Assembly (NCBI RefSeq): GCF_001442535.1
Contig: NZ_CP013141.1
Location: forward strand, 877,907-941,906
DNA length: 64,000 nt
Reading direction: 5' to 3'
Source: Lysobacter antibioticus
GTDB lineage: Bacteria; Pseudomonadota; Gammaproteobacteria; Xanthomonadales; Xanthomonadaceae
Part shown: in pieces, positions 10,312 to 13,764 of the stretch
Layout: the number at the start of each line of letters is the position of its first letter
Numbering within the stretch: position 1 is the first letter of the stretch
The notes under the pieces: generated by a model
Database searches by the model: none
What the model saw: the letters and a program-made list of their open reading frames with translations, nothing else
What the model was told of the DNA's origin: nothing
Made by a program: the position numbers and the translations under genes

Positions 10312-11283
10312 CTATGGCGGGCCGGCGCCCATAAACAGGGCCAAGGCGCCCTCCAGTTCGGCCGCATCGCGCAAAGGATCGAACCAACGTGCGTCAAGCT
10401 CGCCGCGCAACCAGGTCAACTGGCGCTTGGCGAGCTGGCGGGTGGCGTAAACGCCGCGATCGCGGAATTCCCGGGCGTCGTAGTCGCCGTCGAGGTGCTC
10501 CCAGGCCTGGCGATAGCCGACCGCGCGGATCGCCGGCAAGTCCTGCGGCCGCGAATGCGCCTGCAGCGCCGGCAACGCGCGCAGGCCGCGGACCTCATCG
10601 AGGAAACCCTGGGCCAACATCTGCTCGAAGCGGCGCTCGATGCGGGCATGCAGTACGGTGCGCTCGGCCGGCGCCAGCACCAGCTTGAGCACGCGGTACG
10701 GCAGGCGCGGCGTGGCGAGCGAATCGCGGCGCCAGTCGCTCATGCTGCGTCCGGACAGCCGGAACACTTCCAGCGCGCGCTGGATCCGCTGGGCGTCGGT
10801 GGCGTGGATGCGCGCCCCGGCCTCGGGGTCGACCTGCGCCAGTTGCGCGTGCAGGGCCGCCCAGCCGAGCGTTTCGGCTTCGGCGGCGAGCTGCGCGCGC
10901 GTGGCCGGATCGGCCTCGGGCATGGCCGACAGGCCGTGCAGCAAGGCGTGGAAGTACAGGCCGGTGCCGCCGGCGAGGATCGGCAGGCGCCCGCGGCCGG
11001 CGATATCGTCGAGCGCGCGGCGGGCGTCGAGCGCGAACTCGGCGGCCGAATACGGCTGCCAAGGCTCGCGCACGTCGATCAAGTGATGACGCACGCTGGC
11101 CAGCTCGGCGGCGCTCGGCTTGGCCGCGCCGATGTCGAGGCCGCGATAGACCAGGGCCGAATCGACGCTGACGATCTCGCCGCCGAGGCGCCGCGCCCAC
11201 TCCAGGGCGAGCGCGGTCTTGCCCGACGCGGTCGGGCCCATCAGGGCGATGGCGAGCGGGCGGGGATCGGCGGAAGCGTTCAT
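10312..11283 (-). CDS. miaA: tRNA dimethylallyltransferase MiaA
   Basis: Transfers a dimethylallyl group to A37 of tRNAs reading codons that begin with U. The P-loop is [14 protein letters not shown] near the N-terminus, followed by [23 protein letters not shown] and the DDxxR-like region around [14 protein letters not shown]-terminal [20 protein letters not shown] helix and [12 protein letters not shown] close the enzyme. Start ATG at 11283 gives 323 residues, normal for the family; the longer frame upstream runs into the non-coding repeat region. It is 180 bases upstream of hfq, so hfq may have its own promoter as in other species. Confidence 0.97.
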
Positions 11284-11403
11284 GCGGGACGGCGGCACGG
11301 CGGTGGAGCGAGCCGGCAGCCTCGCACAGGCGCGGGCATCGAGGAAGCGGCGGCACCGCCCGGCCCTGCCCGCCCCGTGGCCTGTGCGACGCGGCGCCGG
11401 CGC

Positions 11404-12352
11404 TCTCCACAGACATTGTGGAGAAGCACTGGGGCAAACCTGTTGATAAGCCCATCGCGCCCAGGCCTGGCAAGGGATAGCTCTTGTTTGTCGCTTTTTT
11501 GACCAGACGATGACGTTTGTCCACACAGCCTGTGGACAAGCCTGCGGACAGTCTGCCGCGGAGCAAGCGCAATCCGTTGCGGTGTAACGCTCGCGATAAG
11601 TTTGATCATTTATTGATCACTTATTTTTCTTGACTTGCATCTCATTGTCGGCATCCCCAACCGATCCGAATCGCCGCGCGGCGACAGCGCGCGCAAGCGA
11701 CGCGAAGCGCTGTCCACAATCGCTGTGGACAAACCTGCGGACAGCGGCGATGCAATCGGGTTTCACGCCTTATGCCGCAAGGCCGAACCAACTATGGTGA
11801 AAATTTAACCATGCACGGAAACGGCCGAAATCGCTTGGCCGCGCATCGGTCCCGCATCGGTCCTGCGTTGGGCGAACGAGACTCGAACGCGCATCGCAAG
11901 CGCCGATCCCGCCCGGGATCGCGCAAATTTCCCCGCCGATGCACGAGCGCAGGCTACTGATTGCGCGAAACGGCTTGCGCAATGTCCACAATCGCTGTGG
12001 ACAAAGCTGCGGACACACGCGATGGAAGCGTGTTTCACGCGTTGTGCGGCAAGGGCGCACGGATTATGGCGAAATTTTGACCACCGTTCCCGGGTCGAAG
12101 AACAAGCCTTGCCCACTTCGTCAAATGCTTGACTTCGCGAGCGCTCGCCCAGGCCAGGATCAAAGGCATTGACATGGCTCGATGCTTCGACGCCCGAAAC
12201 TCAGGAGCGGCATGACCGCAGCGGCGAGCGCATCGAAACGGCCGCATCGCGCTGTCGACGGTGCCTGTGGACAAGGCTGCGGACAAACTTCATGCAACGT
12301 GTTTCACGCCTTGCGCGGCAAGGCTTTCGCGGTCATGGCGATTGTTGAAGAC
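11404..12352. repeat. array of DnaA-box-like palindromes in about 270-bp units
   Basis: Five related sites. Each of the best four has an inverted pair separated by 5 bases plus a third box whose start lies exactly 12 bases after the start of the second. Site 1: TTGTCCACA 11517-11525, TGTGGACAA 11531-11539, TGCGGACA 11543-11550. Site 2: 11711-11718, 11724-11732, 11736-11743. Site 3: 11983-11990, 11996-12004, 12008-12015. Site 4: degenerate left arm 12253-12260, 12266-12274, 12278-12286. A diverged site 0 is at 11404-11424 (TCTCCACA, TGTGGAGA), followed by TGTTGATAA at 11441-11449. In sites 2-4 the box trio is followed at 23-24 bases by GTTTCACGC (11760, 12032, 12301) and 33 bases later by a TATGG/CATGG block. 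TTGTCCACA is one base from the classical DnaA box TTATCCACA and is a known preferred box in high-GC bacteria. Confidence 0.75.
11596..11635. promoter_or_regulatory. AT-rich palindrome with two TGATCA sites
   Basis: In an otherwise GC-rich region this stretch is strongly AT-rich. It contains TGATCA at 11603-11608 and 11614-11619, 11 bases (one helical turn) apart, enclosed by ATAAGT and ACTTAT arms, followed by TTATTTTTCTTGACTTG. It lies between DnaA-box-like sites 1 and 2. It could be a DNA-unwinding element, a regulator site or part of the miaA promoter; sequence alone does not decide. Confidence 0.45.
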
Positions 12353-12523: not shown

Positions 12524-13426
12524 TTACTCGTCGTCCGGCCACTTCAGGCTCGGGGCCGACGAGGCCGCGCGCCGCGGCATCGGCTGCGCCGCGACCGCTT
12601 CCCAGACCTTGATCGCGTCGACGGTGGCGGCGACGTCGTGCACGCGCAACAGCTTCGCGCCGCGCTGGGCGGCGATCAGATGAGCCGCGACCGAGCCGTG
12701 GACGCGCTGCTGCGCCTCGTCGCGACCGGTGAGCTCGCCGATGCTGCGCTTGCGCGACAGCCCCGCGAGCACCGGCACGCCGAGTTCGCCGAAACGCTGC
12801 AGCTGCGCAAGCAGGGCCAGGTTATGGGCGAGGGTCTTGCCGAAGCCGAAACCGGGATCGACGACGATCCGTTTCTTGGCGATGCCGGCCATCTCGGCGG
12901 CGAACAGGCGCTCGACCAGGAAGCGGTGCACTTCGGCGACGACGTCGTCGTAGACCGGCTCGGCCTGCATCGAACGCGGCTCGCCCTGCATGTGCATCAG
13001 CACCACCGGCACGCCGAGTTCGGCGGCGGCATCGAGCGCGCCTTCGCGGCGCAGGGCGTAGACATCGTTGATCAGGCCGGCGCCGGCCGCGACCGCGGCA
13101 CGCATGACCTCCGGCTTGGAGGTGTCGATGCTGATCGGCAGCGCGGTCTCGCGGGCGAGACGTTCGATCACCGGGATCGTACGCCGCAGCTCTTCCTCCA
13201 GCGGCACCTCAGCGGCACCGGGGCGGGTCGATTCGCCGCCGATGTCGAGCAGGTCGGCGCCCTCCCCGGCCAGCTTCAGGCCGTGCGCGACGGCAGCCTC
13301 GAGGCTGTCGTGAGCGCCGCCGTCGGAGAAGGAATCGGGCGTCACGTTGACGATGCCCATGATCCGCGGGCGGTCGAGGACGAGGCGGCGGCCGTTGCAG
13401 TCGAGAGTCGTGGCGAGATCGAACAT
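12524..13426 (-). CDS. folP: dihydropteroate synthase
   Basis: Condenses 6-hydroxymethyl-dihydropterin pyrophosphate with p-aminobenzoate in folate synthesis; the sulfonamide target. Signature motifs are present: GIVNVTPDSFSDGG near residue 25, GGESTRPGA about 62-70, SIDTSKPEV about 100, and DPGFGFGKT followed by GLSRKRSIGELTG. Length 300 is slightly above the usual 275-285 because of an Arg/Pro-rich C-terminal tail. The ATG at 13426 is preceded by no obvious Shine-Dalgarno sequence: a heptamer tract ends only 14 bases upstream. Confidence 0.96.
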   Translation of the reverse strand: MFDLATTLDCNGRRLVLDRPRIMGIVNVTPDSFSDGGAHDSLEAAVAHGLKLAGEGADLLDIGGESTRPGAAEVPLEEELRRTIPVIERLARETALPISIDTSKPEVMRAAVAAGAGLINDVYALRREGALDAAAELGVPVVLMHMQGEPRSMQAEPVYDDVVAEVHRFLVERLFAAEMAGIAKKRIVVDPGFGFGKTLAHNLALLAQLQRFGELGVPVLAGLSRKRSIGELTGRDEAQQRVHGSVAAHLIAAQRGAKLLRVHDVAATVDAIKVWEAVAAQPMPRRAASSAPSLKWPDDE

Positions 13427-13540: not shown

Positions 13541-13691
13541 AGAGCGTCCGCGCTGCTCCGAGCTTACGCAAGCGCTTTGCAGCTTTCATCTCCGATCGGA
13601 AGCAGAAACGTAAGCCGGCCTGGCAGCGCGAATCCGCGATGGGTGGGCTTCGGCTTTACCCATCCCGATTCCCAACTGCCGAATCGCGGCC

Positions 13692-13729
13692 AAAAGAAAA
13701 CGGCGCCCGGTTGCCCGGACGCCGTTTGC
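13692..13729 (-). terminator. rho-independent terminator after ftsH
   Basis: Hairpin with arms AACGGCG-CCCGG and CCCGG-A-CGCCGTT around a TTG loop, followed on the minus strand by TTTTCTTTT. It lies 36 bases beyond the ftsH stop, so folP is probably transcribed, at least partly, from its own promoter in the 13430-13690 interval. Confidence 0.75.
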
Positions 13730-13764
13730 TCTTGCTCTACCAATCCCGAATCCCGGCCTGAAAG

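Follow-up and report, generated by a model that had tools for sequence, protein, structure and literature searches.

What could a cluster of regularly arranged DnaA boxes do in a gene-free gap in the genome of Lysobacter antibioticus, probably a soil bacterium? Such a cluster lies between miaA and folP in the window, i.e., the whole stretch of 64,000 nucleotides that was analyzed, and a first-pass annotation had proposed that it is either a DnaA-binding locus controlling replication timing or a relic origin. The former suggestion gained support and was narrowed on sequence grounds to a putative locus with the core geometry of the DARS sites of Escherichia coli rather than that of datA, whereas the latter lost ground for the reasons given below together with the genomic position of the array.

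Layout of the array in the miaA–folP gap

The gap between miaA (10312..11283, minus strand) and folP (12524..13426, minus strand) measures 1.24 kb. Both flanking genes are ORFs named from their sequence, and all gene names used here are based on sequence recognition and homology. The gap contains four copies of a 35-bp block and a diverged leader, all on the plus strand, which agrees with the four box trios of identical layout and the diverged fifth that had been reported. The leader (11403..11450) consists of CTCTCCACA-N5-TGTGGAGAA and a weak third box, ends in TGTTGATAAG, and is located 114 bp upstream of the core of unit 1. In this first DARS-like core (11517..11551), box I (TTGTCCACA) is followed after 5 bp by an inverted box II and after a further 3 bp by box III, and boxes I and II are both perfect copies of TTGTCCACA. 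The same box layout recurs in the DARS-like cores of units 2 (11710..11744), 3 (11982..12016), and 4 (12252..12286); as originally described, 5 bp separate the inverted boxes, and the start of box III follows that of box II by 12 bp. Box I scores 8, 7, 7, and 5 of 8 in units 1–4, respectively, and unit 4 is considered weak because of the low score of its box I (CTGTCGACG).

Downstream of the core, a GTTTCACG block is found in unit 2 (11760..11767, plus strand, 15 bp past the core end), unit 3 (12032..12039, plus strand), and unit 4 (12301..12308, plus strand), and the (T/C)ATGG block that had been noticed 33 bp further on is present in all three. The latter block is the start of a Fis-type palindrome. 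In unit 1, this palindrome (GATCATTTATTGATC, 11604..11618, plus strand) begins 52 bp past the core end, at a conserved position, and matches the consensus GnnYAnnnnnTRnnC exactly. Its counterparts in units 2 (GGTGAAAATTTAACC, 11796..11810, plus strand) and 3 (GGCGAAATTTTGACC, 12068..12082, plus strand) have an offset of 51 bp and retain five of the six consensus letters, and the element near 12337 in unit 4 is degenerate and absent among the rows listed for offsets 46–56, where units 1–3 are present. A period of about 270 bp, which had been ascribed to the best units, applies to the last two intervals (272 and 270 bp) but not to the first (193 bp); a constant 270-bp period was rejected, as it holds for part of this array only. 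Just upstream of the folP start, a GGGAATC tandem repeat extends from ~13438 onward.

With up to three mismatches allowed, the palindrome formed by the inverted boxes matched five times in the window versus 0.12 matches expected, and the strict trio pattern occurred three times versus not once in 200 mononucleotide shuffles. In the whole genome (5.77 Mb), the palindrome at up to two mismatches was recovered in seven places, five of which belong to this array.

The description of the region as gene-free was confirmed insofar as just mechanical ORFs occur between miaA and folP and no Rfam match was obtained in the array up to E 5; three Rfam matches below the gathering score are located at 13690–13740, outside the array. 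This bears on a possible role of the units in transcription, in which bound DnaA would control miaA, folP, or a small RNA missing from the annotation and thereby couple their expression to the cell cycle. DnaA is a known regulator, the array is situated upstream of miaA, and the units hold conserved blocks in addition to the boxes. However, searches with simple consensus sequences revealed neither a promoter-like site nor an excess of terminators, and single trios with the same downstream element adjoin other genes (priA and a histidine-kinase gene), so that transcription control appears quite improbable. A small RNA as such was rejected because of the missing Rfam match, promoter-like site, and terminator excess in the array. 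The units also contain a CCTTG/CAAGG repeat, which is not treated as an RNA hairpin since a perfect repeat with arms of 5–7 bp is absent in 56 of the 117 array hits described below.

Comparison with DARS1, DARS2, and datA of E. coli

E. coli has two known DARS, each of them a single site. Both turn ADP-DnaA into ATP-DnaA and have the same box spacing (PMC5742627, in part). The DARS1, DARS2, and datA regions of E. coli K-12 were scanned for the box layout of the array, and the positions found for these loci agree with the double boxes that a ChIP-seq paper gives for them (PMC11317965, in part). In DARS1 (TTATCCACTATTCCTGTGGATAACCATGTGTATTA) as well as DARS2 (TTATTCACCTTTTCTGTGGATAGAGTTGTGAAGAA), the boxes are located at offsets 0 (plus strand), +14 (minus), and +26 (minus). 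All four window units have three boxes at exactly these offsets, with box I opposed to boxes II and III, and hence the arrangement and spacing common to both E. coli DARS. The head-to-head pair of boxes I and II has been described as functionally essential, and such pairs as a feature of DARS, unlike the head-to-tail boxes of oriC (excerpt of PMC10380432). Among ten double boxes checked, which were taken from the 16 published E. coli regions (PMC11317965, partial text), only the DARS1 and DARS2 cores have a good inverted partner (7 of 8) at 5 bp, with the others scoring 2–5; at rpoH, an inverted partner of good quality is found at a distance of 4 bp.

Like the array, datA is an intergenic DnaA-box cluster away from oriC, but its double box has no inverted box at 5 bp, and its activity is ATP hydrolysis with IHF and not nucleotide exchange (PMC5742627, in part). 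An identity with datA was rejected because the inverted partner is present in the array and absent at datA. The same observation is relevant for the main rival explanation, according to which the array, as a sink of the datA type or of the type of the Bacillus subtilis DnaA-box cluster, mainly soaks up DnaA and delays initiation without nucleotide exchange. The many tandem boxes would suit this function, as multicopy binding sites titrate by nature, and the array accounts for five of the perfect boxes, of which the whole genome has no more than 19. The fixed inverted pair speaks against a plain sink, since titration needs boxes but no such geometry. In a search of class genomes with free gaps (first gap 1–12, second gap 0–9; 106 of 252 genomes matched), the first gap was 5 bp in 150 of 150 among the matches listed, and the second was 3 bp in 136, 1 bp in 12, 5 bp in one, and 8 bp in one of these 150. 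Selection thus appears to act on the geometry itself, and a pure sink is regarded as unlikely.

Each of the two DARS resembles the array in its own way. DARS1, located between bioD and uvrB, shares with it the identical box geometry, a G-N13-C 15-mer (GGCGTTAAAGACGGC) starting 51 bp past the core, and the absence of a strict IHF consensus from the scanned stretch of 250 bp. It differs by having one core instead of four and TTAT-type boxes I and II, and its 15-mer contains no exact Fis consensus. DARS1 is active in vitro without added factors (PMC5742627, in part); its core (35 bp) and a further 66 bp add up to 101 bp, the figure stated for it in the same excerpt, an agreement that may be a coincidence. 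DARS2, located upstream of mutH, has the identical core geometry and uses Fis, but contains one core only, and the one exact Fis consensus found there is located 110 bp past the core and not at 50–52 bp. It also requires IHF, with sites between the core and the Fis sites as deduced from published site-shifting experiments (PMC4245941, in part).

On the basis of these comparisons and of the downstream element, the array is probably a tandem DARS locus of the Fis type, at which DnaA would bind and exchange its nucleotide. In each unit, boxes I and II would be occupied by two ADP-DnaA molecules in head-to-head orientation, and box III by a third. Contact between the AAA+ domains of the bound DnaA molecules would then expel ADP, and the apo-DnaA would reload with ATP, so that the ATP-DnaA level would rise ahead of initiation. 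A protein of the Fis type, bound to the palindrome located 51 bp downstream, may help to assemble or activate this complex, and tandem duplication would have multiplied the unit, with the copy number setting the reactivation capacity. Several points weigh against the tandem-DARS reading: the missing strict IHF consensus (in a scan that is insensitive), the weak unit 4 without a proper palindrome, the harm caused by a DARS2 overdose, the position of the downstream element, which is unlike that in DARS2, the bias in the scoring of this element, and the absence of an exact trio from 133 of 274 class genomes (see below for the last two). The rate at which the initiator is recharged depends on DARS sites, and an extra DARS2 on a plasmid disturbs the growth of E. 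coli to the extent that colony formation is severely inhibited (PMC4245941, partial text). Many full-strength copies would for this reason be unexpected, which suggests that each unit of the array is weak on its own or that titration of DnaA is a further function of the array.

Anatomy of the unit and its downstream element

The anatomy of the unit was analyzed in 21 array loci, comprising the window and 20 regions chosen by hand from the genus and family lists, with the arrays of other listed genomes left out. These loci yielded 117 trio hits, of which a stricter filter dropped 12 weaker ones, mostly leaders, leaving 105 units. A G-N13-C palindrome of the Fis type with an AT-rich center was found 50–52 bp past the core in 111 of the 117 array hits (offset 51 in 71, 52 in 37, and 50 in 3), whereas 50 shuffles of the array flanks gave a maximum of 9 at any one offset. 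One caveat of the scoring is that it takes the best 15-mer and is biased toward Fis-like letters; in about half of the sites, position 4 of the palindrome is G instead of C or T. The exact consensus GnnYAnnnnnTRnnC occurred within 120 bp in 45 of the 105 units, compared to a mean of 9.8 and a maximum of 18 in shuffles. Beyond these arrays, 49 trio readings were obtained at family and genus loci after an overlapping reverse one had been dropped, and 48 of them have the element at 50–52 bp, as do 34 of 40 hand-chosen regions from other class genomes; the shuffle comparison for the offset covers the array flanks only. A Fis homolog is encoded in the L. antibioticus genome itself (50% identity over 74 residues, E 1.6e-19) and would be a candidate for binding the palindrome.

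A strict IHF consensus was found in none of the 117 array hits by a scan that is insensitive, since it misses the published pair of IHF sites next to the core of E. coli DARS2 and reports one site only, 400 bp past the core. With the same consensus, sites were detected at 85–87 bp in 16 of 41 family loci and genus loci of the single trio A (see below), and 9 of the 40 regions from other class genomes have one at 85 or 86 bp. Subject to the caution that applies to the IHF scan, the array looks like a series of repeated Fis-type, IHF-free units, and trio A like a Fis-plus-IHF type. The offset of 14 or 15 bp is occupied by GTTYCACG or GTTYCATG in 68 of the 117 array hits. GTTYCACG, which corresponds to the GTTTCACG blocks at 11760, 12032, and 12301 in the window, presumably resembles half of a parS site.

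Across the 21 array loci, the box columns are near invariant and the spacers variable. This pattern is difficult to reconcile with a non-functional satellite repeat that contains box-like words by accident, as is the occurrence of the module in single copies across the family and class. Such a repeat would also be tandem and differ in copy number between species, and the flanks are indeed somewhat more alike within one array than between arrays (0.576 vs. 0.489), but on balance a satellite is highly improbable.

Arrays and single trios in related genomes

Conservation of the array between folP and miaA, which the first-pass annotation had proposed to check, was found in relatives, where homologs of both genes flank 17 of the 20 relative array loci. 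The exceptions are two second arrays (L085 and L086), which are not beside folP–miaA but ~57–60 kb from the first array, and one locus of another genus (L100). Second arrays occur in the genomes G004, G005, and G015 in opposite orientation, ~57–70 kb from the first. Not counting leaders, the 21 loci contain 2 to 10 units each, with 3 to 10 at folP–miaA (4 in the window) and 2 in the locus from the other genus. A leader precedes the next matching core by 114 bp (once 115 bp) in 13 of the 21 loci including the window, and L082 shows a leader too. Neighboring units in relatives are spaced by 147–339 bp, and among the units listed also by 418, 622, and 1259 bp; in the latter cases weaker units were probably missed. 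Of 80 named folP loci, 11 contain one or more trios in the stretch scanned, among them three from Arenimonas with single or double copies; the FolP most similar to that of the window in this set is from L. antibioticus 13-6 (97% identity).

In the L. antibioticus genome, trios were detected at three places, i.e., the array (C1:889424) and the single trios A (C1:4477506) and B (C1:268800). Trio A is a neighbor of priA, and trio B adjoins a histidine-kinase gene. Among 41 A-like loci examined in the family and genus, 36 have a priA homolog next to the trio, and a homolog of the histidine-kinase neighbor of B was found in 6 of 6 relatives examined. A and B have the same core as the array units and a Fis-like element at offset 51 or 52, but unlike the array they are single copies, and in A there is an additional IHF consensus at offset 86. 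Of the 19 perfect TTRTCCACA boxes in the genome, 5 belong to the array, 2 each to A and B, 2 are located beside dnaA, probably in the dnaA–dnaN gap, and 8 elsewhere. The reversed control word occurs 30 times, as if perfect boxes were avoided outside functional loci.

These positions also bear on the earlier suggestion of a relic origin, or on that of an accessory one. Clustered intergenic DnaA boxes would be compatible with an origin, but oriC is expected as a box cluster beside dnaA, and the array is ~575 kb away from dnaA and its two perfect boxes. No comparable trio was found in the 10 kb around dnaA, trios exist at three separate places, and the head-to-head box pairs contrast with the head-to-tail boxes reported for oriC (PMC10380432, in part). 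A relic or accessory origin is thus regarded as extremely improbable. Expressed as the distance from dnaA, the array is located at 10%, B at 21%, and A at 48% of the chromosome. In eight relatives (G002, G003, G005, G007, G008, G013, G015, and G016), the array is at ~28–34% and A at ~8–11%, as determined by hand with the largest contig taken as circular chromosome. A dif-like match was absent from the L. antibioticus genome and present in 10 of the 20 genus genomes; together with the differing distances from dnaA, this perhaps reflects a rearrangement or an assembly problem.

As far as titles and the first parts of abstracts in the open literature reveal, neither DARS in Xanthomonas or Lysobacter, nor a tandem DARS, nor the fixed element at +51 has been described. 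A tandem DARS array may set the time of replication start. A more far-reaching and tentative idea is that Lysobacter possesses a dosage-tunable generator of ATP-DnaA, in which the tandem copy number (3 to 10) would set the initiation threshold and the units would reactivate DnaA at high levels of ADP-DnaA and act as a sink at low levels, and that the +51 palindrome, bound by Fis or another protein, would be an unrecognized general part of DARS across the class, including DARS1 of E. coli. Independently of this idea, the tandem core and the two single sites would offer a natural dosage series for studying how reactivation and titration jointly set initiation timing, and the +51 element, should it prove to be a general component of DARS, a concrete target for understanding how the flank activates nucleotide exchange.

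The distribution of the trio geometry was surveyed with the pattern TNTCCACA-N5-TGTGGANAA-N3-TGNG, which was derived from these same loci and which DARS1 and DARS2 of E. coli fit only with mismatches; the genome samples behind the following counts were not weighted phylogenetically. With at most one mismatch, the pattern was found in 20 of 20 genus genomes. Exact matches occurred in 136 of 149 family genomes (49 of 54 genera), in 141 of 274 class genomes, with the exact trio absent from the other 133, and in 75 of 299 genomes of the phylum sample; the reversed pattern used as control gave no matches among the rows listed. A wide distribution of DARS is not claimed as new here, because the conservation of DARS-like sequences across many proteobacteria has already been stated (PMC10380432, in part). 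Outside the class, trios also occur in genomes of the same phylum such as G466, with up to eight per genome.
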